Positions 6,258-21,126 of a stretch of DNA of 26,120 nucleotides are shown here, piece by piece. The notes under the pieces are model-generated. The model did not search any database. It was given only the letters and a program-made list of their open reading frames with translations, and was not told where the DNA came from. Every line of letters begins with the position of its first letter. Positions within the stretch are counted from its first letter, which is position 1. Made by a program: the position numbers and the translations under genes. This stretch comes from a virus: IMG/VR virus record IMGVR_UViG_3300008267_000452, positions 1 to 26,120 of that record, one strand, 5' to 3'.

Positions 6258-6297
6258 AAGAAAAAAAGGGGAGGGGGTAAATGCCCCCACCCCCTTT
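6258..6297 (-). terminator. Strong intrinsic terminator
   Basis: On the minus strand a G-run stem (GGGGGTGGGGG) pairs with CCCCCTCCCC across a short CATTTA loop and is followed by TTTTTTTCTTTT. It stands about 20 bp after the stop of the 443-residue structural gene and just before the next promoter. Confidence 0.9.
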
Positions 6298-6317: not shown

Positions 6318-7649
6318 TTAAGCGCCAGTAGTGGTGGTAGTAGTTACAAAGTCATCGCAAGGAAGACCTGTAGCAGTTAAGTATTCCACCTCAATACCGT
6401 TACCAGCAGCATCCAGAATATCCTGAAGCAGAGCAACAAATGCTGTTGTATTTACACCCACCTTAGTCCATACTGTCAACAGATACTGATCATTATCAAA
6501 TGTACCAGTAGGGTTGTTGAAGCGAGGAACACTATGGAGAATATTTACAGAGTTGTACAGCTCATCTGTGTCAAACTCACGGAGAGCAGAAGGAACCTCA
6601 ATTTGACGCATTCTCAAGCTATCTGTAAAGTTTCCATCAGGGAAGGCTTCTTGACGGTATCTGTTAGACAGAATAACATCACGAAGAACAGTGTTACCAA
6701 CACCTTGAGCCTGCAAAGGAACCTGAATCTCAGGAATGTAAGTGCCATCAACTGTGTATTGACCAGTGATAGTTACACACTGAAGATTACAAGGATCACC
6801 AGCATCATCAGTCAAAGACAAAAGAATGTTGATGGGTTGCAGTTCATAGTGGTCAGTTACACGGAAGGTACAGTTTCCAAACTTAGTATCTTCATAAGCA
6901 CCAGTGAAACGGAGACAAGACTGAGCTGTTTTAGCACCCTCAGGGTTTTCAGCAGCATAAGTTGTCCAACCAGAATCATCAGAGTTGTAAGCATCAAGAG
7001 CTGCAATAAACTCTTCTACAGTGTTAAAATCAGCTTGATCAGCCACTTCTACACCATCCCAATCAGACACAGACAACTGAATAAAGTTGCGCAGAATAGG
7101 ATCTATAGCAATTTGCTTAGCCCAATTAATTGAAACAATTGTAGGATCTACAATAGCACCAGTACAAGTAGCAGTGCAATCGTCAGTGCAACATCCTGTG
7201 TAAGCAGATACAGTTTTATAGATGTTGTGAGACAAGAAACGGAGAGCAGGACTACCCTTCAGATCAATACGAAGGTTGTAAGTCTTACCACATTCCATTT
7301 CACATACACACACATCTTTAATGTGTTGCTGAGGCTCATTAGCACAAGTTGTAAATACACGGGTGATGTACTTAGGGTTGATCACCTTAGACTTTACAGA
7401 CTCTTTATAACCACCATGATAAGGACCAATCTTATCACTAGTGAAATAAGAACCCTGAGCCAACAGGAAAGGGGTGTTAGTAGCAGGAACAGAGGTAAAA
7501 CTCTCATAGGTCTTTGCATTGAAAAGACCTAGCTGACCAGCTACAAGGTCAGATGTTGGATTGCCAGAAGGCAACAAAGTCAATGTGTTTGCTGTAACAC
7601 CCAAGTCGCCCAGCAAGAATGACTTTTTAAACGCGTGATTAAAATACAT
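6318..7649 (-). CDS. Major structural protein, probable tail tube or equivalent
   Basis: 443 residues, mixed beta-rich, ending in a run of six Thr residues and GA. It carries a Cys cluster at roughly residues 100-160 (VCVCEMEC, then CCTDDCTATC) that could bind metal or form disulphides. Its own leader (ATAAACC...AAAAAG) and a strong terminator immediately downstream suggest high expression, as for the major capsid gene. Proteins of this size and style in the same place in Bacteroidota phages are abundant virion proteins; tail tube is my best guess because it follows the connector gene and precedes the appendage genes. A head decoration protein is the alternative. No named domain is recognised from sequence alone. 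Confidence 0.6.
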   Translation of the reverse strand: MYFNHAFKKSFLLGDLGVTANTLTLLPSGNPTSDLVAGQLGLFNAKTYESFTSVPATNTPFLLAQGSYFTSDKIGPYHGGYKESVKSKVINPKYITRVFTTCANEPQQHIKDVCVCEMECGKTYNLRIDLKGSPALRFLSHNIYKTVSAYTGCCTDDCTATCTGAIVDPTIVSINWAKQIAIDPILRNFIQLSVSDWDGVEVADQADFNTVEEFIAALDAYNSDDSGWTTYAAENPEGAKTAQSCLRFTGAYEDTKFGNCTFRVTDHYELQPINILLSLTDDAGDPCNLQCVTITGQYTVDGTYIPEIQVPLQAQGVGNTVLRDVILSNRYRQEAFPDGNFTDSLRMRQIEVPSALREFDTDELYNSVNILHSVPRFNNPTGTFDNDQYLLTVWTKVGVNTTAFVALLQDILDAAGNGIEVEYLTATGLPCDDFVTTTTTTGA

Positions 7650-7688: not shown

Positions 7689-8279
7689 TTACAAATAGTC
7701 TTTGAGCTCATGATCAAGCAATCTCATAGCAATCTTATCTTCACCAAATGCAGTGAGCTGATCTACCAGGTCCTGCATCTTTCCATGCTCTTCATTCTGC
7801 TCTTTTAAGTAGTGGAGAGCAAGCTCATACAACATGTGACTTCCCATCTTCATGGCATGGTTTGCAAGCTCCATAATCTGTTGGGTGATAACAATCTCAT
7901 GGTCAAATGACTTTCTGATAATATCAGGAAGACCTCCATAAACTTCAGCAGGCTGCTCTAAAGAAGCAGTTGCTGGTTGAACACCCATGTTAAGAAGATA
8001 GGTACGTGCAATTTCTGCATGACCTCTTTCTTCATCAGAATACTTTCTCCAAAGTTTGCCTCCATTTAAATAACCATTATTGGTTAACCAAAGAGACATT
8101 GCAAGGTAAATTCTAGAAGACTGATCTTCCTGTTGAGCTCTGTAGTTTAAAAACTTAATACAAGACTCATCAATCAGGGGATTCTTACCTGCTGTCGGAG
8201 CTGTTTTAATACCAGCTTTAGAAGGCTCAGCAGCAACTGTTGAAACCTTTAAAGACCTTTTTAGAATATTACTTTCCAT
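7689..8279 (-). CDS. Ferritin (FtnA-type, ferroxidase site intact)
   Basis: 196 residues forming a full bacterial ferritin after a 35-residue N-terminal extension. By alignment to E. coli FtnA from memory, all six ferroxidase ligands are present: E51 (E17), E84 and H87 (E50, H53, in EERGHAE), E128 (E94, in DHEIVITQQIMELA), Q161 and E164 (Q127, E130, in EQNEEH). A fifth helix (LLDHELKDYL) follows, as in 24-subunit ferritins and unlike rubrerythrins or Dps. The expected activity is oxidation of Fe(II) and storage of ferric mineral inside a protein cage. The extension (Ala/Thr/Lys/Pro-rich) is not part of the fold and might target the protein. It sits between a connector-like gene (2 bp upstream) and the tail-tube candidate, on the same strand with native-looking base composition, so it is part of the late operon. 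Family assignment is firm; a virion or host-iron role is inference. Confidence 0.93.
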   Translation of the reverse strand: MESNILKRSLKVSTVAAEPSKAGIKTAPTAGKNPLIDESCIKFLNYRAQQEDQSSRIYLAMSLWLTNNGYLNGGKLWRKYSDEERGHAEIARTYLLNMGVQPATASLEQPAEVYGGLPDIIRKSFDHEIVITQQIMELANHAMKMGSHMLYELALHYLKEQNEEHGKMQDLVDQLTAFGEDKIAMRLLDHELKDYL

Positions 8280-8281
8280 TG

Positions 8282-8980
8282 TTAACTAGATTTTTGAACA
8301 CTACCTTCAGCTCTTTGGTATTGGTTAAAGGACTCAATATCAGCAGCTATAATTGCAACAGCAGCATCTATAATGAGTTCTACAACATCATCTTTAAACT
8401 CACATTCTTGTTCTGCATTTACCACCCCAGTGGCTGGATTGATGCATCCATCAAATGTTACATCTAAAGGCTTTCTGTAGTAGGAGAGGATGACAGACTC
8501 AATATGAAAAGTGTCATTAGTATACACTCTAAAATGATTGTCATGCATTGTAGCAAATGTCTCACCCCACTCAAAACTAGGACCCTTGAAAGAATCCTTT
8601 AGCAGGATGTCTGCATTTGCTTCCTCAGCTAAGTACACTTTAAAAGATCTATCCTTACAATCCTCTTTAGTTCCTAATACCCCTACTTTAATAAAATAAG
8701 CATAATTTGTGGGAATACCAAGACTTTCAAAGAATAATTTTTTATTTTCCCCTTTTAGAGTCTCTGTAGATACAAACTTCTGCAGGTCATCAATAGTTCC
8801 AAGTGTTTGTTCAGAAGACTCTTTCTTAATGTTTACACCATGAACTTGTCTCCTAAACCACTCTCTTTGAGCTTTATTAAAAGCTTCAGCAATCTGCCAA
8901 CACTCTATATTATCATAGTCAAATGATGCCAGTTTATTTAACCTTTGCTGAAACTTTATTCTTAAGAGAGTATTCTTCAT
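8282..8980 (-). CDS. Probable head-tail connector / ring protein
   Basis: 232 residues. The N-terminal part is helical with a basic patch (AFNKAQREWFRRQVHG, about residues 33-48); the middle is beta-like (YFIKVGVLG, FKVYLAEEAN, HIESVILSYYRKP); the C-terminus is a helix (DDVVELIIDAAVAIIAADIE) followed by a polar tail. This layout matches a conserved protein seen near the portal, capsid and tail genes of crAss-like and other Bacteroidota phages that is thought to form a ring or tail-completion adaptor; that match is from memory. It ends 2 bp before the ferritin start, so the two are probably co-translated. Confidence 0.6.
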   Translation of the reverse strand: MKNTLLRIKFQQRLNKLASFDYDNIECWQIAEAFNKAQREWFRRQVHGVNIKKESSEQTLGTIDDLQKFVSTETLKGENKKLFFESLGIPTNYAYFIKVGVLGTKEDCKDRSFKVYLAEEANADILLKDSFKGPSFEWGETFATMHDNHFRVYTNDTFHIESVILSYYRKPLDVTFDGCINPATGVVNAEQECEFKDDVVELIIDAAVAIIAADIESFNQYQRAEGSVQKSS

Positions 8981-8981
8981 A

Positions 8982-9230
8982 TTAACACTTCCATTTTCTT
9001 AATGACTTATTAATCCTGCTATCTGGGTCATTAGCTGTTTTAGAGGATGTAAGTTTTTTCTTCATACCCTCCATTCTAGCACAGAATGACTTTTTTCTAG
9101 ATCCTCCTTCAGGCTGAGGTGGTTTAAGATTACCACCTGTAGACTTATTATAAGAAGCTCTACCCTTAGCATTAAGTCCTCCACTTGGGGACTTGCCTTC
9201 TTTGCGTTGCCAAGCTGGACTCTTTGCCAT
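8982..9230 (-). CDS. Small basic protein of a family shared with giant viruses (82 aa)
   Basis: 82 residues from the ATG at 9230. A longer frame from 9257 would overlap the previous gene by 26 bp, and family members begin at this internal Met (MAKSPAWQRKEGKSPSGG). The pattern 'W.RKEG..P.GGLNaKGR.SY', then 'RKKSFCARM.GM', then 'NDP.SRINKSLRKWKC' is one I recall from phages and mimivirus-like giant viruses, where it is a domain of unknown function (possibly DUF6321; number uncertain). It has two Cys and a strong positive charge. Being the last of a row of seven short basic genes before the connector suggests a virion or DNA-binding role. Confidence 0.75.
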   Translation of the reverse strand: MAKSPAWQRKEGKSPSGGLNAKGRASYNKSTGGNLKPPQPEGGSRKKSFCARMEGMKKKLTSSKTANDPDSRINKSLRKWKC

Positions 9231-9231
9231 A

Positions 9232-9474
9232 TTACTTTCTTTTTTTAACCATACCACCTCTTCTCATAGCAGATCCTCCAGAAGCTCCAGAAGATGCTGA
9301 AGATGTTGAAGATGAAGATGTTGCAGAAGATGTAGATGCTGCAGCAGCTGGAGCAGGCGCAGGACGACCACTACCAACCTTACCTCCACTAGAAGGTTTT
9401 GCTGTAGACTTTGCTGTTGGTTTTACAGGTTTTGCAGGCATAGGTGCAGAACCACTAAACTTTCTTTTTTTCAT
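9232..9474 (-). CDS. Low-complexity Ala/Ser/Pro/Lys protein (80 aa)
   Basis: 80 residues with a basic start (MKKRKFSG), a Pro/Ala/Lys middle, an uninterrupted Ser/Ala/Thr/Gly tract at about residues 42-68, and a basic end RRGGMVKKRK. Predicted to be disordered. Overall it resembles eukaryotic linker-histone tails in composition, which suggests nucleic-acid binding, but there is no fold to recognise. The start overlaps the stop of the upstream gene by one base, and the stop is just before the next start. The C-terminal GGxVxKK motif recurs in three other small proteins here. Confidence 0.65.
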   Translation of the reverse strand: MKKRKFSGSAPMPAKPVKPTAKSTAKPSSGGKVGSGRPAPAPAAAASTSSATSSSSTSSASSGASGGSAMRRGGMVKKRK

Positions 9475-9674
9475 TATTTCTTTTTAGACTTTACAGAACC
9501 ACCATTTTTCTGAAATCCCATCTTGTTTCTAACTGCTGTAGGCAGCTTTGCAAGACCTGGATTTTTTGTAGCATCAACAGGTTTCAGAGAACCACCAGAT
9601 GCCATCTTGGGTTTTTGACCTTTAGCTTTCATTGCTACAGCAATTGCAGCTTGTTGTTTAGCATTCTTTGCCAT
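9474..9674 (-). CDS. Small basic protein (66 aa) with GGSVKSKKK tail
   Basis: 66 residues. An N-terminal helix (KQQAAIAVAMKAKGQKPKM) is followed by a Gly/Pro-rich segment, the phrase 'LPTAVRNKMGF', and the basic end KNGGSVKSKKK. Short phage proteins with 'AIAIAMK..GKKPK' and 'LP..VRNKMG' phrases are familiar from metagenomic phages, without known function. It overlaps both neighbours by a base at the stop/start, so translation is coupled. Confidence 0.65.
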   Translation of the reverse strand: MAKNAKQQAAIAVAMKAKGQKPKMASGGSLKPVDATKNPGLAKLPTAVRNKMGFQKNGGSVKSKKK

Positions 9675-9874
9675 TACTTTTTTCTTTTTATAGTAGGTGA
9701 AGAAGAAGTTTTACTTTTTACAAGACCTCCCAGAGCAGCTATTTGTTGTTTAGCTACACCTTGAGCAGCTGCAAAACGAGCTTTATCATTTTTAATTTCC
9801 ATAGCTCTTTTCAGAGAGTCTAAGTCTGACTCAGCTCTCCATCTTTTTTCGTCTGCTGAAATTTTACTTTTCAT
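9674..9874 (-). CDS. Small helical basic protein (66 aa)
   Basis: 66 residues. Residues 5-48 look like a two-helix hairpin with the pattern 'W.aesDl.sL..A.eI..D.aR..AA..va..qi..L', which I have seen in small proteins of several phages. The tail GGLVKSKTSSSPTIKRKK is basic and similar to the tails of its neighbours. It lies in a chain of end-to-start overlapping genes. Function unknown. Confidence 0.65.
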   Translation of the reverse strand: MKSKISADEKRWRAESDLDSLKRAMEIKNDKARFAAAQGVAKQQIAALGGLVKSKTSSSPTIKRKK

Positions 9875-9875
9875 A

Positions 9876-10145
9876 CTACCTGTAGTTTTTGGTTTTTTGT
9901 TTTATAGATTTAGGTTGAGAAACAAACTGTTTACCTTTCTTGTTACCCTCAGCTTTAGCTTTATTTGTAGCAGCTTTTTCACCAGAAGATAAAGAAGTCC
10001 AAGCAGCCTCAGGAAGGTATCTCTTTTTACCTTTAGAAGGAACTTCTTTAGAAGAACCTTTCTGTTTATTAGAATGTGTACCAGAGGTCATCCACTTTTG
10101 ATCACCCCAGCTCTTTAAGCTTTGTTGTGATTTTGCTAGTGCCAT
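9876..10145 (-). CDS. Small basic protein of a phage/giant-virus family (89 aa)
   Basis: 89 residues, very rich in Lys and Ser. The phrases 'SLKSWGDQKWMTSGTHSNKQ', 'KRYLPEAAWTSLSSGEKAAT' and 'KGKQFVSQPKSI' match, from memory, a short domain found in phages, mimivirus-like viruses and some bacteria (a DUF, probably DUF5872; number uncertain). Its role is unknown; the charge suggests nucleic-acid contact. The ATG overlaps the stop of the preceding gene by one base. Confidence 0.75.
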   Translation of the reverse strand: MALAKSQQSLKSWGDQKWMTSGTHSNKQKGSSKEVPSKGKKRYLPEAAWTSLSSGEKAATNKAKAEGNKKGKQFVSQPKSIKQKTKNYR

Positions 10146-10324
10146 TACTTATACCCTCCTCCTTTTGCTTTATACTCTCTAGCAAGCATCTGGGCTTTTC
10201 TAGCAGACCATTCACCTGGGTCACCACCTTTACCTCCAGATTTAATCTTGTTAAATAAAGACTTTCTCATACCTGGTTTGGTATAATTACCAGCTTCATT
10301 CACTTTACTTTTTGCCTTTGCCAT
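10145..10324 (-). CDS. Small basic protein of a phage/giant-virus family (59 aa)
   Basis: 59 residues from the ATG at 10324 (MAKAKSKVNEAGNYTKPGMR). A start at 10381 would add 19 residues that overlap the upstream gene and do not fit the family. The phrases 'KVNEAGNYTKPGMRK.LFN.IK.GGKGG.PGEWSARKAQMLA' are strongly characteristic of a small family I recall from cyanophages, other marine phages and giant viruses. The conserved Gly-Gly-Lys-Gly-Gly and Trp-Ser-Ala-Arg-Lys suggest a compact nucleic-acid-binding fold. It overlaps the upstream gene by 20 bp. Confidence 0.78.
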   Translation of the reverse strand: MAKAKSKVNEAGNYTKPGMRKSLFNKIKSGGKGGDPGEWSARKAQMLAREYKAKGGGYK

Positions 10325-10559
10325 TTGTTTTACTTTTTGGATAAGGGTTTTCTTTATGCCATTTCTTAGTAGCTGCAACACCCTGGGCTACTGTCTTTGC
10401 ACCAGACTGTTTTGTAAGGTTAATAGTATCCCATTTACCTTTATCTTTAGTAGGATGAGTGACAATAATATCACCCTCACCACCTTTACCTTTGTTATTG
10501 GTCTTTTTGTAAACAAGATGCTTCTCTCCACCAGCTAATACTTTTACTTTCTTTGCCAT
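10305..10559 (-). CDS. Small basic protein (84 aa)
   Basis: 84 residues from the ATG at 10559, 1 bp after the stop of the upstream gene. The longer option from 10598 would lie inside the upstream gene. The first two thirds may fold (VKVLAGGEKHLVYKKTN, then GDIIVTHP, WDTINLTKQSGAKTV); the end is Lys/Asn/Pro-rich and disordered (KENPYPKSKTNGKGKK). It is the first of seven consecutive short basic genes. No family recognised. Confidence 0.65.
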   Translation of the reverse strand: MAKKVKVLAGGEKHLVYKKTNNKGKGGEGDIIVTHPTKDKGKWDTINLTKQSGAKTVAQGVAATKKWHKENPYPKSKTNGKGKK

Positions 10560-10560
10560 A

Positions 10561-11577
10561 TTATTTTTGCCAGGATTTTTCCACCTTACCTTGAACATCC
10601 ACTAGGATTTGTTCATTAAGAGGGTTCTTTAAAAATTCAAGAACATCTGAAGGAGTTTTACCAAGGATGCTACCACTTTCTAAATGATAAATAAACCCAT
10701 CAGCTCTTGTTGCAATAACCTTTAAGAAAGCAGCATCTTTTACCATAGCTCTAATTTTTAAAGTTTCCATATCTAAAGATGCAACTTCTAGAAATTTTTC
10801 AGCTGTACGTTTTTTGTTTGTATCAACAGACTCCCCATTAATATATCTATCCATATTGTCATACAGTACATCTGTAGGGGTAGACTTTTTATACTGAGAA
10901 CTATTAGTGTCAACAATCTTAGCAACGTAAAATAACTTATTAGTGTTCTTGTCAAAGAGTTTCTGAAGTTCAGAAAGAGCCTTGTTTCTAAGCTTCTTCA
11001 CTTCAGTTTTAGTAGAAATAGTATTTTCTAATTTATCTAAGTAAAACTTAGGAGGAGTTGCCATTTTGCGAGCTGCCTCATATGACTTAGCTACAATAGA
11101 AAACCCTCCATTCTCAATAGCAATAAGCTTAATAAGATCATATGGATCTTTTTCTGGATCTAAAAAGAGGGGTTCATTACTACAAGCTATTCTGATTCGT
11201 CCCCAAAACTCATCATTGTCAGGTTTAAGAAGTCTAACCTTGTTCCAAAACTCTGGATCATTGGGGTTGATAACATTAGCTGCAAGCTCTTTTTCTAACT
11301 GAGAAACAATGGTTCTAATTTGTTTAACCTTAGCTTCTTGTTCTTCAGCATCCAGCTTTTTAATATCAGGAGCAAATTCATTAAGACCAGTGACATATCT
11401 TTTAATACCATTCATCTCCAAACAGGTGAGCTGTTCTTCATGAAATGTGTTATCAAAGAGCGTCAATCCATATTTCTCAAGACCCATATTTGACTTACTT
11501 TGTTCAAAATAAGGTCTAATTGCAATGCTGGACTTTTTGTTTTGTGGATAGCCCTCCACAATAGTTACTGTACTCAT
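10561..11577 (-). CDS. Conserved phage protein of unknown function (338 aa)
   Basis: 338 residues, mixed helix and strand, charged and with no membrane segment. Residues 70-110 form a Lys/Glu-rich helix. A repeated NDPEFW / NDEFWGRIR phrase lies near residues 105-130, and residues 200-225 are coiled-coil-like (TEVKKLRNKALSELQKLF). The position between capsid-side genes and the basic cluster suggests a virion or assembly protein. The leader contains ATAAACCAATAAAACCAA 15 bp or so before the ATG, as at several other genes here. I do not recognise the family. Confidence 0.6.
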   Translation of the reverse strand: MSTVTIVEGYPQNKKSSIAIRPYFEQSKSNMGLEKYGLTLFDNTFHEEQLTCLEMNGIKRYVTGLNEFAPDIKKLDAEEQEAKVKQIRTIVSQLEKELAANVINPNDPEFWNKVRLLKPDNDEFWGRIRIACSNEPLFLDPEKDPYDLIKLIAIENGGFSIVAKSYEAARKMATPPKFYLDKLENTISTKTEVKKLRNKALSELQKLFDKNTNKLFYVAKIVDTNSSQYKKSTPTDVLYDNMDRYINGESVDTNKKRTAEKFLEVASLDMETLKIRAMVKDAAFLKVIATRADGFIYHLESGSILGKTPSDVLEFLKNPLNEQILVDVQGKVEKSWQK

Positions 11578-12671: not shown

Positions 12672-12711
12672 ATTAAAAAAAGTGAGAGGGAGACCTACTA
12701 GAGGTCCCCCT
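12672..12711 (-). terminator. Intrinsic terminator after the major capsid gene
   Basis: Minus strand: a GGGGGACCT / AGGTCTCCC stem with a CTAGT loop followed, a few bases on, by a run of seven T. It lies about 10 bp after the capsid stop codon. Genes downstream have no promoter motif, so it is presumably partial. Confidence 0.8.
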
Positions 12712-12722
12712 TCACTATTATA

Positions 12723-14345
12723 TTAGAATGAACCACCAGTGATCGGGTTTCTCATAACAATCTTCAACACCTTGGTTGGGTCTTTAACCCAGATAGCAGG
12801 CATTGTTTGAGTCATGAATACACGATAACCATTGAACTGTCCACTAGACTGGAAGCCTTGTGTACGTCCCATATAGTCCATAGTACCATTCTGATAGAAC
12901 CACTTCAGTTGATTATCCCAACCCAACTTCAACAAGTAGATGTTGTCATTAGTATTGTCAGTGATATCAAAGATAATGAAGTTGTAGCTAGACAGAGGGA
13001 AACCATCAATAATTGGGTTTTCAATGTCGTTAGTATGTACGTTGTCAAATGCAGGGTTCAGAACAAACTGAACATTAGCAAGGAAAGGAATAACATAGCT
13101 AGTGTAAGCATATCCAAAGTTCAGATCCATTCCACTACCAGTGATAGCACCAACTTCAGAAGCGTTGATGATCAGACCAGAGTTAACAGCTTCACGTTTG
13201 ATAGCTTCATTAACCAGACGCATACCACCCATACCAGTTTGTACAACCAGCTTACGCTTAGGGTCTGGACCTTTGAACTCCACACGACCGTTGAAGAAGT
13301 TGAAGATCTCAGACTTAAACAGATCCAGTGTAAAGCTAGATTTGTTGTAAATACGCTTATATGAGTTGTCAAGTTGCTTCCAAAGACCCACAGACAGACG
13401 AATGTCATCTGGACCATCTTGCTTAACACGTCCACCATGTCCCCACATCAAGTAGGTTTCGATGTCTGTAGCAATCTTAGTCAGGTGAGCAGCCTCCATA
13501 GTAGTCAAGAAAGTACGTGTAAGAGTACCACCTTGGATAGCTCTTTTTACATACTCCTTACCCATTTTAGCAGCAAGACCTTCCAGGCTAGTGATAGAAG
13601 GATCATTGCTCTTGTCAAAATTTCTCCAGATCTCTGTTACAGGAACTGAACCATCTTGTCTCAAACCACCCTTCATCATCAGGTCAGCACGACTAGATAC
13701 AGAGTAGTGAACGTGAGCTTCAGCACCACCTACAAAGTTGTAGAACTCTCTGTAACCAGAACCATAAGCTCCGATATCAGAGAATCTTTCACCATACTCT
13801 CCACGTGCAGAACCTTTACGGAAGAACTTAGTACCATTCTTCAGATACTTAGGAGCATCCAAGAACTTAGTGTTGTCGTTGTTAACCAACTGAACAGTGT
13901 AAACTACACCATCTGGAACAGGGATGATATCCTCTGTAGGAACGATGTACAATTCCACACCATTATATTTGTCATAAGTGATGATATCACCATGACCAAA
14001 TGTACGCTTGTTCAACTTGATTTTGAAGGTAGTACCATCAGCACCAAGCTCTTCAGCTGCTTCAATGTTCTCAACGATATAAGGAAGATCCTGAGAAACA
14101 GGAACCTGCCACTTATACTCACCGCGAGCATTGTCTACATTAATTACGTTCTTTCCACCAAAGCTTGACATCTGGTACAAAGGCATCTCTACCTTTTGTG
14201 CCATCGCCCAAAGATCAACAGGACCCATATCCATAGGCTCTGCAGTCTTCAGCATGTTAACCAGGTGGTAAGAATCTACGTGAGAGCTAGCATTGTAGCT
14301 TGTATCCCGTAGAAAGATACCATTGTTTAAAACTGGAGTTGACAT
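12723..14345 (-). CDS. Major capsid protein
   Basis: 540 residues, no signal peptide or membrane segment. Identification rests on position (after terminase, portal and an acidic scaffold-like gene), size, and style: an N-terminal arm, mixed alpha/beta body, long helix-turn regions (TTMEAAHLTKIATDIETYLM), and a C-terminus of strands (YRVFMTQTMPAIWV, KVLKIVMRN). These fit an HK97-fold capsid protein of the large Bacteroidota phages. It has an A-rich leader (ATAAACAAAACAAAACAAA) directly before the ATG and an intrinsic terminator right after, consistent with very high expression. Several long antisense frames lie across it and are by-products of its biased codon use. The alternative, another abundant head protein, is unlikely. 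Confidence 0.8.
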   Translation of the reverse strand: MSTPVLNNGIFLRDTSYNASSHVDSYHLVNMLKTAEPMDMGPVDLWAMAQKVEMPLYQMSSFGGKNVINVDNARGEYKWQVPVSQDLPYIVENIEAAEELGADGTTFKIKLNKRTFGHGDIITYDKYNGVELYIVPTEDIIPVPDGVVYTVQLVNNDNTKFLDAPKYLKNGTKFFRKGSARGEYGERFSDIGAYGSGYREFYNFVGGAEAHVHYSVSSRADLMMKGGLRQDGSVPVTEIWRNFDKSNDPSITSLEGLAAKMGKEYVKRAIQGGTLTRTFLTTMEAAHLTKIATDIETYLMWGHGGRVKQDGPDDIRLSVGLWKQLDNSYKRIYNKSSFTLDLFKSEIFNFFNGRVEFKGPDPKRKLVVQTGMGGMRLVNEAIKREAVNSGLIINASEVGAITGSGMDLNFGYAYTSYVIPFLANVQFVLNPAFDNVHTNDIENPIIDGFPLSSYNFIIFDITDNTNDNIYLLKLGWDNQLKWFYQNGTMDYMGRTQGFQSSGQFNGYRVFMTQTMPAIWVKDPTKVLKIVMRNPITGGSF

Positions 14346-15734: not shown

Positions 15735-15752
15735 TAAAAAGGCTCACACCTT
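15735..15752 (-). terminator. Weak intrinsic terminator at the portal stop
   Basis: Minus strand: AAGG, a 6-nt loop, CCTT followed by TTT. The stem overlaps the portal stop codon. The stem is short, but the site precedes a promoter motif, as at 6258-6297. Confidence 0.4.
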
Positions 15753-18480
15753 ATTTATTTTTGTCTTTAGGAGCTTTGTCATACTTATTCTTGTTCTCCC
15801 TAGCTATCTGTAACTGTTTGTTGGCAATCTCCTCTCTTGATGCTATTTCTCTTTCTTTTATAGCATTTTGAGATCTAACCACATTCATTCTATTCACTTC
15901 CTTCTCTCTTTGAAGACTGGTTTGCTCTTGGTAGTTTTCCTGTTTCTGGATTCTCTCCATAGCATCCTGGTAGTCACTCTGAAGGTTTTGGTTAATGTCC
16001 ATCATTGATCCATACCCAGCAGCCCTAATCTCAGCTTGTAATATTTGAGACTGTCTATTCTTCTCATTCTCAGAAGCTTCAAACTCCATCTTCATCTGAG
16101 CTTCCTGCTGGCGAGCCTGCAGTTCTTGTTGCTGCATTTGCTGTGCTTGCTGAGCTTGTTCTTGTCTCATTGCATTAGCTTTTTCTTCAGAAGCTTTAAG
16201 CACTCCTGTAAGTTCAGCAATAGACTCAGACTTAATAATATTACCCAAGTCATAAATAGAAGCACCAGCTGTGTTATTCTGCAGTGCAAGTTGCTTTAAC
16301 TGATCTAGAACAGCTCTGTGATTGCTTCTGGTTGTAATAAAAATGTTTAAATCTCTAGCTAACAAGTCAACACCATTCATCTGAAAATTAACCTTCTCAT
16401 CTGTAGAAGTGATATACTGAAGACGCAAACTAGGTTTTTTAGAGTTATAATACTGAGCAAGGTCAGTACGCATCTGGTGCACTCTAGGCATCAAATGGTC
16501 TGAATGCTGTACAAAATAGTGCTCTGTTTGAGCATATGAGTTAACTACAGCCTGCTCAATACCTGTAGCTGTCTGCTGTCCTGTGACAGAGCCCAGACGT
16601 TGAGGACTAATGCCAATACTTTCAAAGGCTTGACTTTTGAAATAGTTACCAAGCTGGATACGTGATAACAGACGTTGTGTCTGTTCAAGATTAAGCACCT
16701 GGTAGTGTTGGAATGCTAAAGCATTTTCTGTATTTGTAATAGAAGTGTCCAGAGCTAACATCTGGAAATTCTTCATTGCTACATACGCTTTAGCAAGATT
16801 GTTCTTACCCCAGTCTTCTCCCATAGAGTGACGTGGTAGAGCATTTTGATCCAGAAGAATTACAGTACCTAGCTCATCAACTAAGATGTCAGCAATCTGG
16901 TTATTTACAATGTTATAACCAATCTGGAAAGGTTTCATCAAGTCTACAAGACTTACTGATCGCGTATTGCGATCAGAGAACACAGATCCTTCTACAGGAA
17001 GTTTACATCCATAAACAGTCTGGTCTCCCTTAAACTGGAAGGGGATTTTTCCTACATTTATATACATGGGAGCAAGACCTCCAGGGTTGTTCATACCCCA
17101 GAAACTAGGTCTGTTAGGACCTACCTTAATACCACCCCAAGTCTCATTAATCCAGATCCAGTCAATATGTTCACCAAAGATCAGATTGTCTTTGGTTTTG
17201 TTTTTTACAAGCTTTGTATTATATACAGGCTTCTCTGTCACCTTATATGTCTCATCTACAATTTCTTGTGTAATCTCACCCTCTTCGCTAACGCTTGTAA
17301 GATGACCTACTTTACGCTGACTCTTCCAATAAACAGTGGTTGCGCGCAGCATATGTGTAGGACCATAGTCTAAGAAATCTTCACCTTCAGATAATATCCA
17401 CTGAACAATATCCCCATTATAAGGCATGTTCTCATAGGTAGATAAGAACTGACGGTAAGCTAAAGAGGGGCCTTCCACATTATAGGCATGAGATCTTGTA
17501 GCATCATAATATGAACCATCATTCTGTAAACCTCCTAAAGGTAAGCCTGCAGATCTTACAGGATAGATTGCTTCAAGAGCTTCTAGCTGATCTTGAGACA
17601 TTAAATATCCATACTGATCAATGATGTCAGCTACAGTGAGAATTTCAATCTTACCTACCCAGTTACCCTGGGAAATATATCTTGCACTAGGAGACTTATG
17701 GTAGAACGTAAGAAGAGGGTTCCAAAGCTCAATATCATAGTCATCTTCATTCATCTTAAAATGCCAGAACTCTCTATCTGTGATAAGCATGTCTCTAAAC
17801 GCCATATTCTCTAGCTCATAAATCTTAAATCTTTCTTCATCAGCCTTATGCTGGTGAGTAGCCCATTCTTCTACAAGAGAACGATAGTCTTTTTTAAAGA
17901 ACTCTTCAATTTCTGGAAGAGACTTAAGAGCCTCAGGATTAAGAACTTGTTGAGCTTCTTCAGACTGAGGGTCCATCCCCATCTGTACAAGCTTCATCAT
18001 CACTTGTCTTTCAGCATCTGCTAAAAGAGTTTGTTCTATCATTCCTCTTTTCTCCTCCATCATTTCATTATAGGAAATGTCATCAACAGCTCTAAACATA
18101 ATTTTAGAAGCTCTTTTAGAAAACTCTCCTGTCAGAACATTAATAACATTTGGAATGATGGGATAAAACTTAAGCTCAAGTGCAGATTGGTCTTCTCTAG
18201 TGAGCGTCTCAATCAAGTCTGCATACTCATTGTCCTCTTCTATAATATAGTCTGATCTATCAATAATACCTTTAGCAAGCTTATAGTTTTTAAGCAGTCT
18301 TCTGGCATTACGTCTAATCTGCTTTATACCCTGCCACTCTAACCAGTCACAGTTCCACGCTCCCCACTCCTCATCCTTCTCACTCTTAGGTAAAAACTGG
18401 ATGGGCTGTGTCAGCGTACCCATCTTATTATATGAGGTCTTTTTACCTGCTTTTAGATCTAGTGCATTATATACTTGCAT
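15751..18480 (-). CDS. Portal protein
   Basis: 909 residues, longer than typical portals but in line with those of large Bacteroidota phages. Conserved-looking portal phrases: KFYPIIPNVINVLTGEFSKR (about 104-123), 'W.FKMNEDDYDIELWNPL' (about 239-257), and SPSARYISQGNWVGKIEILT. The last 170 residues are a Gln/Glu-rich coiled coil ending in Lys-rich sequence, likely disordered or part of the internal barrel. The portal ring is the DNA entry channel and joins head to tail; it works with the terminase encoded just upstream and the scaffold-like protein just downstream. Identification is from these phrases, length and position; fold not testable here. Confidence 0.85.
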   Translation of the reverse strand: MQVYNALDLKAGKKTSYNKMGTLTQPIQFLPKSEKDEEWGAWNCDWLEWQGIKQIRRNARRLLKNYKLAKGIIDRSDYIIEEDNEYADLIETLTREDQSALELKFYPIIPNVINVLTGEFSKRASKIMFRAVDDISYNEMMEEKRGMIEQTLLADAERQVMMKLVQMGMDPQSEEAQQVLNPEALKSLPEIEEFFKKDYRSLVEEWATHQHKADEERFKIYELENMAFRDMLITDREFWHFKMNEDDYDIELWNPLLTFYHKSPSARYISQGNWVGKIEILTVADIIDQYGYLMSQDQLEALEAIYPVRSAGLPLGGLQNDGSYYDATRSHAYNVEGPSLAYRQFLSTYENMPYNGDIVQWILSEGEDFLDYGPTHMLRATTVYWKSQRKVGHLTSVSEEGEITQEIVDETYKVTEKPVYNTKLVKNKTKDNLIFGEHIDWIWINETWGGIKVGPNRPSFWGMNNPGGLAPMYINVGKIPFQFKGDQTVYGCKLPVEGSVFSDRNTRSVSLVDLMKPFQIGYNIVNNQIADILVDELGTVILLDQNALPRHSMGEDWGKNNLAKAYVAMKNFQMLALDTSITNTENALAFQHYQVLNLEQTQRLLSRIQLGNYFKSQAFESIGISPQRLGSVTGQQTATGIEQAVVNSYAQTEHYFVQHSDHLMPRVHQMRTDLAQYYNSKKPSLRLQYITSTDEKVNFQMNGVDLLARDLNIFITTRSNHRAVLDQLKQLALQNNTAGASIYDLGNIIKSESIAELTGVLKASEEKANAMRQEQAQQAQQMQQQELQARQQEAQMKMEFEASENEKNRQSQILQAEIRAAGYGSMMDINQNLQSDYQDAMERIQKQENYQEQTSLQREKEVNRMNVVRSQNAIKEREIASREEIANKQLQIARENKNKYDKAPKDKNK

Positions 18481-18485
18481 GATTC

Positions 18486-18602
18486 TTAATTAGTTATGGT
18501 GTATGTGTATGTTGGTTTCTCAAACTCCACAATGTCTGTTATGATAGAAAAATATCCATCTCCAATAGTGTAGTTTGTTAAAACAGGTTGTGAAAACATC
18601 AT
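18486..18602 (-). CDS. Possible tiny protein between terminase and portal (38 aa)
   Basis: An ATG at 18602 overlaps the terminase stop (ATGA); a second ATG follows immediately. The 38-residue frame ends TAA 5 bp before the portal start region: MMFSQPVLTNYTIGDGYFSI, then TDIVEFEKPTYTYTITN. It has a beta-like pattern. The coupling overlap and the precise fill of the gap favour a real gene, but its size makes chance possible. Confidence 0.4.
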   Translation of the reverse strand: MMFSQPVLTNYTIGDGYFSIITDIVEFEKPTYTYTITN

Positions 18603-20803
18603 CTATAATTTTTAAATGGCATACTAGGTTTTCTCATGCCTGGTGACATACTTCTTGAACCCCCCATATGTCTAAAGGGGGTCAATTTTAATTTATGACT
18701 TTTTTCTGGATTTACCAAGTTTTTGTTGCTCACCTCAATCCTTTTCTGTAAGCCTCTGTTGGACTGCTGCACCTTAGCAAAAGCTATTAAAGAACAGAAT
18801 GACACAAGACGGTCAACATTTATACCATCCTGGTATGCCTGCATTTCTTTAAGAAGCATAGGATCTGGAATGCGCTCCACGCCATATATAGTCTTAACAA
18901 TAGTACCATCTGGTAGAGTTTCATGGTCTAATTCTTCTTTTAAAAATTCAATACCATATGACAGGATTGTACCCTTAAATATAGTACCTACGTTCTTCCA
19001 ACCATACTCCTGAAAGACATTTCTGTTAGCACCTATGTCTTTAAGAAACAATATCATATCCTTTGGTACTAAATACTTTTGTTTCTTCTTAGATATCATG
19101 TATTGGATAAACAAAGCTACGTTGTTCTCCACTATTGTCCAGGCATTGTAGTGTTCTATGAGCATTTCTAAAAGCTCATGGGTTTTATTAATATCGTCAA
19201 ACCTACCACACCAAGATGCTACAATAGCATCTCTTTCTAGAGTGTTTCTCACTTTACCATCACCCTCATCCACTATAACTTCTACAGGATTTTTATAAAC
19301 GTAAATAGAACACAGTGAGTCTGATGTAACAGTTTTACCCTCACCTACAGGGTCAATAGATGCATAATACATCCCAAAAGCAGGGTCTTTTACAGGACGT
19401 TCATAAATACAAACCACTGCTTCTTTATTCTCAGCTTTTTTAGAGACTGGAAACTGCATAATTGGAAGTTTTCTAGATGGTGTAGCTACCACTTTACCCT
19501 CTGCATTTCTAGAAAGGTCAACATATTCTACAGCATATGTTTTTTCAGTTATTCTTTGAAGCTGTTTAGAAACAAGATGTTGTGGAAACTTGCTCACTTT
19601 TCTAGCAGCAAAAGCCTCAGCAATATTACGAGGGTGCTGTGATATAGTAAGTTGATAAGCTTCAGGAGCAAGATCTTTTTTAGCTTTCTCAAACTCTATC
19701 TCTAAAGCTTTTAATGCATCTTGTACTAATGAATTACCATACTGATCTATATAAGGGGGCATTGACCATTGCTCAGGAATAAAAAGTCCTGTCTTACCTA
19801 TTGTACCATCTCCATCTATAAGAGTGCTATCCACTGCATAAAACCCATTCTCATCCGCATTAAGAATATATTCTTTTAGAGGTTCACACTGATCAAGATC
19901 ACCCACAGAACCTGCAGCAATAAACTGACCTGTAATAATATGACCAGACTTTAAGGCTGGTTTAATAAACCCATAAGTCTGATCCATCCTAGGTGCGATA
20001 CCACCTTCTTCATGAAAGAAGTAAGTGACAGGACCACCGACACCATTTGTAGGATCTTTCTCAAAAGAGTAGGCTGAGATGGTTGACTTTAATCCTTTAT
20101 AAGTGTCCCTACCATTTATTCTCACCTTAATTCTCTGTTGCCATGCTCCTACTTTCTCAGGTTCAGAAGGTCTATACCAGGCAGTATGCTCATTAAGAAA
20201 GTTTTTATACTCATCTAAAAACTTCCAAGACCCCTTCTCATTTATATAGTCTTTAAGACTAGCTCCTATCTTTAAGACAGCTCCCTCCTCAAACCAATAC
20301 TGGTTAATAAGTTTAGCCATGTGAAAATAGGAGGATGCTATCTGACGTTTCTTTAGAATGATAGCATGCTGATAATGAAGCTCAGCCAGAAGTTCATATA
20401 GTGCCATGTGGTACTGAGCATCCCTCACCTTAGCAAAGTCAAACCTCTTTTCTTCTTTGTCATAAATAGGAAGAAAGTTTAACCACATGTAGTAGTCTCT
20501 AGAAATGTACCAAATTTTGGTACCTGAGTGCACAATCACTCCTTTTCTACATTTCTCTTTTTGATCATTCCAATAAGCTATAAAGTCTTTGCTCTTAAGA
20601 GGAGCATCACAATAATATTTATCTTTTTGAAACTTTCTAGCTTCAGCATTAAATATTAAACTTGTTTCATCAAACTCATACTCACCAGGTTCTTTAAAAA
20701 GAGGAATAAGAAAATTCTTAAAGTCATCTCTTGTCAAGAACTCAGTGGTGATCCATTCACCATCTTTATAAGTGGGAATCTCTATATAGTTAGATGTTGA
20801 CAT
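18599..20803 (-). CDS. terL: Large terminase subunit (TerL)
   Basis: 734 residues: an ATPase domain followed by an RNase H-like nuclease, the motor that cuts and pumps DNA through the portal. Visible motifs: an atypical Walker A-like KKRQIASSY (151-159); a Walker B-like TYFFHEEGG (260-268), where the usual Asp/Glu-Glu pair appears as HEE; a coupling motif-like GSVGDLDQ (298-305). In the nuclease part, D484 lies in YYASIDPVGEGK, E559 in WTIVENN, and D664 in INVDRLVSF; these fit the three metal-binding acids. No intein or intron is visible. It overlaps the small gene upstream by 14 bp. The basic C-terminal tail (HKLKLTPFRHMGGSRSM) may contact the portal. Confidence 0.9.
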   Translation of the reverse strand: MSTSNYIEIPTYKDGEWITTEFLTRDDFKNFLIPLFKEPGEYEFDETSLIFNAEARKFQKDKYYCDAPLKSKDFIAYWNDQKEKCRKGVIVHSGTKIWYISRDYYMWLNFLPIYDKEEKRFDFAKVRDAQYHMALYELLAELHYQHAIILKKRQIASSYFHMAKLINQYWFEEGAVLKIGASLKDYINEKGSWKFLDEYKNFLNEHTAWYRPSEPEKVGAWQQRIKVRINGRDTYKGLKSTISAYSFEKDPTNGVGGPVTYFFHEEGGIAPRMDQTYGFIKPALKSGHIITGQFIAAGSVGDLDQCEPLKEYILNADENGFYAVDSTLIDGDGTIGKTGLFIPEQWSMPPYIDQYGNSLVQDALKALEIEFEKAKKDLAPEAYQLTISQHPRNIAEAFAARKVSKFPQHLVSKQLQRITEKTYAVEYVDLSRNAEGKVVATPSRKLPIMQFPVSKKAENKEAVVCIYERPVKDPAFGMYYASIDPVGEGKTVTSDSLCSIYVYKNPVEVIVDEGDGKVRNTLERDAIVASWCGRFDDINKTHELLEMLIEHYNAWTIVENNVALFIQYMISKKKQKYLVPKDMILFLKDIGANRNVFQEYGWKNVGTIFKGTILSYGIEFLKEELDHETLPDGTIVKTIYGVERIPDPMLLKEMQAYQDGINVDRLVSFCSLIAFAKVQQSNRGLQKRIEVSNKNLVNPEKSHKLKLTPFRHMGGSRSMSPGMRKPSMPFKNYR

Positions 20804-21041: not shown

Positions 21042-21055
21042 ATTATATAGTTTAG

Positions 21056-21126
21056 AGGTGGATATAGGAGTCGAACCTATGATGAAGCTTTTGCAGAGCC
21101 TTGCCTTGCCACTTGGCTAATCCACC
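21056..21126 (-). tRNA. tRNA-Cys (GCA)
   Basis: 71 nt. Acceptor stem GGTGGAT/ATCCACC (7 bp); D stem GCC/GGC; anticodon stem AGGCT/AGCTT with loop CTGCAAA, anticodon GCA; T arm ATAGG-TTCGACT-CCTAT; discriminator base U73, which is the Cys identity element. The 3' CCA is not encoded, so a host CCA-adding enzyme is needed. It lies 5 bp downstream of a second, unusual tRNA, so both probably come from one late transcript. It might offset a high Cys demand: several proteins here are Cys-rich. Confidence 0.93.

Follow-up and report, generated by a model that had tools for sequence, protein, structure and literature searches.

The window, meaning here the whole stretch of 26,120 nucleotides of viral DNA that was analysed, carries a ferritin gene on its minus strand. 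The open reading frame at 7689-8279 begins with ATG, stays open over 196 codons and is separated by a gap of only 2 bp from the upstream gene at 8282-8980. The features to which the text refers are as follows.

6272-6295, minus strand: terminator-like hairpin after the 443-aa gene, a likely downstream limit of the unit (consensus match only)
6318-7649, minus strand: downstream partner of the slot, 443 aa, a probable virion protein (phrog_15060)
7689-8279, minus strand: FtnA-type ferritin gene, 196 aa (ORF call, Pfam, alignment, AlphaFold model)
7692-8174, minus strand: five-helix ferritin core with the diiron site E51/E84/H87/E128/Q161/E164 (alignment, AlphaFold model, dN/dS)
8175-8252, minus strand: disordered, weakly conserved linker, residues 10-35 (model; N-terminal dN/dS about 0.8)
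8253-8267, minus strand: tag core I-L-K-R-S, residues 5-9, a hydrophobic-x-Arg motif common to the DUF5856 proteins of sister phages
8282-8980, minus strand: virion protein of ring/connector type, in this clade always encoded immediately upstream of the module
12687-12711, minus strand: terminator-like hairpin just 3' of the capsid gene, a likely upstream limit of the unit (consensus match only)
12723-14345, minus strand: crAss-like major capsid protein (Crass_capsid PF23898, 1.5e-31)
15751-18480, minus strand: portal protein (phrog_6547, 7.9e-94)
18599-20803, minus strand: terminase large subunit, terL (phrog_6681, 3.3e-61)

With crAss-like capsid, portal and terL genes in line with the ferritin gene, the cassette is viral. 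The product of 8282-8980 has relatives among Cellulophaga virion structural proteins, and also in a crAss protein annotated as 'ring protein', in keeping with an earlier note on this DNA that had called it connector-like. The same note had labelled the product of 6318-7649 a tail-tube candidate; this label is without support, the match being to phrog_15060, the function of which is not annotated. PDB homologues of the ring/connector, 443-aa and 184-aa genes were sought and none was convincing. Homologues of the 443-aa protein in three relatives (L096, L129 and L141) run to ~670 aa, with inserted Ig-like-looking repeats near the N terminus. The two hairpins, which are consensus matches only, suggest that the ferritin and ring/connector genes share one transcription unit, and the place that the earlier note gave the ferritin gene among virion genes was confirmed in that it lies in the virion operon, behind the ring/connector gene. 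Between the 338-aa and ring/connector genes (8982-10598) lie seven genes in a row whose products are small (66-97 aa) and very basic, one of them DUF6321; their order and presence shuffle among relatives. A lone tRNA-Cys gene is located at 21055-21126 on the minus strand, behind an 83-aa gene adjoining terL. The portal protein has its best match in the phage collection in the cyanobacterial Leptolyngbya phage Lbo-JY46 (33% over 84%), so that cyanobacteria and Bacteroidota are both candidate hosts.

The protein encoded at 7689-8279 was recognized by the Pfam Ferritin profile PF00210 with an E-value of 1.5e-17 (64 bits, cut-off 24.5). Alignment with E. coli FtnA placed E51, E84, H87, E128, Q161 and E164 at FtnA positions E17, E50, H53, E94, Q127 and E130, so that the six residues named in the earlier note are the ferroxidase ligands, and all six were identical in 23 of 23 distinct phage ferritin sequences; FtnA E126 and E129 are likewise kept in the phage alignment. 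The AlphaFold monomer displayed helices at residues 38-67, 71-97, 117-145 and 148-178, together with the predicted fifth helix of cage-forming ferritins (helix E) at 182-195. The top fold match of this model was V. cholerae ferritin (TM 0.94 over the target, rmsd 1.1), and bacterial ferritins could be fitted to it at 1.1-1.5 Å. A 35-residue N-terminal extension had also been proposed, and indeed the ferritin core starts after residue 35, with residues 1-23 disordered in the model (pLDDT < 50). The NCBIfam PRK10304 equivalog scored 67 bits against the window protein, under its curated cut-off of 178, and the two-helix subunit architecture of EncFtn was not found in the five-helix model; the window protein is a ferritin, though not a PRK10304 equivalog. 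Its nearest cellular relatives are Flavobacteriaceae ferritins, at 43-47% identity. The dN/dS ratio was 0.26 for the ferritin core and about 0.8 for the N-terminal region of relatives, and by this measure the core is under purifying selection. The description of a complete, catalytically intact ferritin is thus upheld by the invariant ligands, the PF00210 match and the five-helix model, activity being predicted: the protein would be expected to assemble into a 24-mer cage and to oxidize iron.

Two scans of IMG/VR returned 88 loci carrying this ferritin, mostly in the same position. Phage-borne ferritins, which the earlier note took to be rare, are not so in this phage group, and the profile search it proposed for conservation at this location revealed the ferritin recurring in the same arrangement across dozens of contigs. 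In other lineages the ferritin gene is placed differently, frequently among structural genes. In L025, L027 and L089 a ferritin without a clear tag comes directly behind the portal and precedes the scaffold; a more distant one (34%) lies between portal and scaffold in L038; and in L063 a ferritin follows the portal and has a DUF5856 neighbour. The latter locus (L063:8462-10949) represents another crAss-like lineage, in which the adjoining DUF5856 and ferritin genes are followed by a GroES-like gene, so called from a look at the sequence only. A 5.5-kb contig in a Tissierellales MAG (L170) encodes a ferritin 60% identical to that of the window and is probably a misbinned piece of phage.

The position between the ring/connector gene and the 443-aa gene was treated as a slot that holds either a ferritin body (F) or a DUF5856 body (D), the relatives without ferritin being drawn from a capsid-based scan. 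Among the 108 loci listed with both flanks, which give counts for this list and not frequencies in nature, the slot held F in 67, D in 37 and both in four, and was empty in none. In the close relatives listed that lack F, a slot with both flanks always holds another protein, of 136-171 aa, and this alternative belongs to DUF5856 (phrog_858 in PHROG, 'starvation-inducible transcriptional regulator'). For the 21 contigs of 100-129 kb the distribution was 14 with F only, seven with D only and none with both, ruling out in long contigs that F and D are independent, often co-occurring genes. In one locus (L010) F and D stand in tandem, each with a tag. The slot was also looked at in the distant isolates Fpv1, phi17:2 and Lbo-JY46 and was empty in all three; it is therefore not generally needed by crAss-like virions and is a trait of this clade.

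The relationship of DUF5856 to known folds was approached by profile and by model. The DUF5856 profile finds Dps structures (H. pylori NAP, HP-NAP, E 8e-7), and a predicted model matched Dps and ferritin folds (TM 0.6-0.7, probability 1.00, E 2.8e-3), both placing a four-helix fold of the Dps/ferritin superfamily in this family. Residues H52, H64, D79 and E83 are invariant and are spaced as H51, H63, D78 and E82 of Dps, the full ligand set of which is H51, H63, D67, D78 and E82; at the D67 position DUF5856 has mostly N or G. The core dN/dS of D was 0.35. On profile and predicted structure, then, the DUF5856 slot protein is Dps-like. The regulator label is attached to DUF5856/phrog_858 across hundreds of phages, T4 included (examples are NC_027119 gp75, OL964735 (T4) 56406-56792 and OR106137 gp108), and is thinly grounded; profile and fold say Dps-like, and the family gains a candidate function. 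DUF5856 was mentioned by name in no text of the literature searched.

F and D proteins of the slot have in common an N-terminal tag consisting of hydrophobic-x-Arg, often then Pro, as in the N termini MESNILKRS (window), MEKPRMLKRP, MQKISRPTIF and MIQKLQRPG. A hydrophobic-x-Arg/Lys core was present within residues 2-14 of 49 of 51 F and 32 of 33 D N termini. A strict form of the pattern, tuned on these proteins, was found in 71 of 93 F/D proteins versus 10 of 1851 other ORFs, and the tag as a general operon feature is ruled out on this count. An untuned test gave D N termini that resemble F N termini above background, 28 of 32 lying over the 95th percentile, with a p value of 1.6e-19 that is optimistic because the sequences compared are related. 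The tag residues are conserved while their synonymous codons differ, which points to selection on the peptide and makes a conserved DNA signal alone unlikely. Six supported independent pairs, a small number for such a comparison, set tag against module; four keep the tag class and two change it. Of the suggestion in the earlier note that the extension could be a packaging tag, the part that makes it a tag is supported, and it is strengthened because a Dps-type protein that looks unrelated occupies the same slot and bears the tag too. As a separate observation, the N termini of T4-like DUF5856 proteins (MKFxDF, MQTFNE; L187, L186, L188-L195) somewhat resemble the T4 capsid targeting sequence, MKTYxEF, which is carried by internal proteins of the same phage.

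The history of the slot was read from trees of its neighbours. The capsid tree required nine module changes, at least six of them forced by supported branches, and three changes of tag class, and the connector tree required 12 module changes. The closest sister pair (L021 with F, L156 with D) has capsids 98% and connectors 93% identical and differing bodies; at the DNA level the two match across the connector gene end and on to the last of the tag codons, and differ from there on. The same break of homology, more loosely, was seen for L033 and L166. By these sequence comparisons the module has been swapped at least 6-9 times with the tag retained, and the new element is a tagged, exchangeable ferritin/Dps slot. 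Because sister phages carry a Dps relative in the same slot with the same tag, what the phage keeps seems to be a module for handling iron, docked to the particle or the assembly line, and not a host gene picked up by chance.

Published proteomics of other phages suggests a link of this module to the virion. In CsCl-purified virions of Sajous1, gp217 was found and labelled 'ferritin' by its fold (PMC10892097); a profile check here identified it as DUF5856 (E 1.3e-28). In CsCl-purified particles, ValerieMcCarty03 gp108 and ValerieMcCarty04 gp100 were detected with 26 and 27 spectra (PMC13119998), and the former was likewise identified here as DUF5856 (E 5e-34). These detections by others were made in Kuttervirus and T4-like phages, and the published spectral counts are modest. 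Purified virion preparations also contain non-virion proteins. The capsids and tails of crassviruses are described as carrying protein cargo in large amount (PMC10172136). It is likely that the ferritin is carried in the particle of the window phage. A ferritin 24-mer is about 12 nm wide and could fit in the head; at that width it cannot pass the portal channel folded, which means that a carried cage would either remain in the head or have to unfold. The earlier note had seen in such carriage some substance for the 'Ferrojan Horse' hypothesis, in which tail proteins bind receptors by way of exposed iron. A ferritin cage, however, hides iron and does not display it to receptors. In the one published test of the hypothesis, on a phage with DUF5856 in its virions, there was no dependence on tonB or feoB (PMC10892097). 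For these two reasons the Ferrojan Horse reading is not specifically supported.

The favoured interpretation of these data, to which a probability of about 0.58 is assigned, is that the gene product is a ferritin with ferroxidase activity that is part of the virion programme, is anchored by its peptide to the particle or its assembly, and sequesters Fenton iron near the DNA. Translation of the ferritin would follow directly on that of the ring/connector protein, from the late structural operon, and the short N-terminal peptide, on its flexible linker, would dock the body to some part of the particle or of the assembly line. Two bodies would be interchangeable there, the FtnA-type ferritin and the Dps-like protein of DUF5856; each could oxidize and sequester Fe(II) with O2 or peroxide, and Fenton chemistry would thereby be kept from DNA being packaged or stored. 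Candidate sites of the module are the head, the joint or the assembly line only. As the two bodies have ferroxidase chemistry in common, and their genes have the tag and the ring-protein neighbour in common, a tag-held ferroxidase module is the simplest account, from which we infer that the tag docks the protein, that the virion contains it and that the DNA is protected.

It could be that the gene is instead an auxiliary stress gene, the product of which is made late, remains free in the infected cell outside the virion, sequesters host Fe-S iron and lowers oxidative damage during assembly. There is precedent in the Dps and Mn-catalase genes of gut phages, which one study reads as tolerance genes (PMC8008677), and both the intact diiron site and the swapping of the ferritin gene, as accessory genes are swapped, would fit. 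This reading is nevertheless unlikely, as it leaves unexplained why one N-terminal tag occurs on two proteins and on almost no others, why none of the listed loci of the clade has an empty slot, and why ferritin is found among the head genes of other lineages. Doubtful to a greater degree is a DNA-binding protector, in which the basic, disordered N terminus acts like a Dps tail on phage DNA and the tag binds DNA, not protein. The extension has a net charge of +4 in the window (F median +3.5), the alternative module is Dps-like, and small, very basic proteins adjoin; however, the charge is modest (D median +2, some D 0), there is almost no constraint on the linker, and what is conserved is not a run of lysines but a specific motif, short and with an Arg that never varies. 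A structural or assembly role, with the four-helix bundle as a building block or aid at the head-tail joint and the iron chemistry irrelevant, would agree with the fixed position by the ring protein gene, the shared tag and interchangeable bodies of similar fold, but is very improbable given that the F ferroxidase ligands are all invariant and D is invariant at four of five Dps ligand positions, so that both bodies keep their metal sites. Finally, the relationship to Flavobacteriaceae ferritins might recall a chimeric assembly or a functionless captured host fragment; the former is ruled out by the same gene order in dozens of contigs, and the latter by this recurrence and the purifying selection on the core.

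The tag-held ferroxidase module can be set beside several known systems. Bacterial non-heme ferritins of the FtnA type have the same ferroxidase residues, five-helix fold and core length as the window protein, which differs from them in its tagged 35-residue extension, its virion operon and its score below the NCBIfam equivalog cut-off. The DUF5856/phrog_858 proteins of T4-like, Kuttervirus and crAss-like phages take the same slot and tag in sister phages, have Dps-like metal-site spacing and were detected in virions of two isolated groups; they are a distinct family, however, with a shorter four-helix fold that lacks the fifth helix and with weak, sub-threshold PF00210 scores. The Dps and Mn-catalase genes of 'Gratiaviridae' and other gut phages also encode phage-borne ferritin-superfamily enzymes, but of other families, and the available part of that study does not report a virion operon slot, a tag or module exchange (PMC8008677). 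In the parts available of the literature treating both ferritin and crAss-like phages, nothing appears to describe the tagged slot. The T4 capsid targeting sequence is similar in being a short N-terminal peptide on otherwise unrelated head-destined proteins; its motif is a different one, and the tag here is found on hardly any proteins but F and D.

The debate about iron in phage particles has for the most part had no named protein or testable signal to work with, and a conserved slot with two exchangeable ferroxidase bodies and a peptide constant through the change of body now offers a named candidate. In encapsulins, ferritin-like cargo consists of a ferritin-superfamily enzyme with a short terminal targeting peptide, encoded next to the HK97-fold shell gene. 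The likeness extends to the enzyme superfamily, the short terminal peptide (here a putative tag) and the nearby HK97-fold shell gene, whereas the ferritin of the window is of the classical five-helix kind, its tag is N-terminal and the shell is the head of a tailed phage. By analogy, and tentatively, the slot may be a tailed-phage counterpart of encapsulin cargo loading, in which an N-terminal peptide would bring interchangeable ferroxidase cages, of 24-mer ferritin or Dps-like protein, into a crAss-like virion as its own defence of the packaged genome against iron and peroxide; if the tag binds the particle, it would be a candidate cargo peptide for crAss-like virions.
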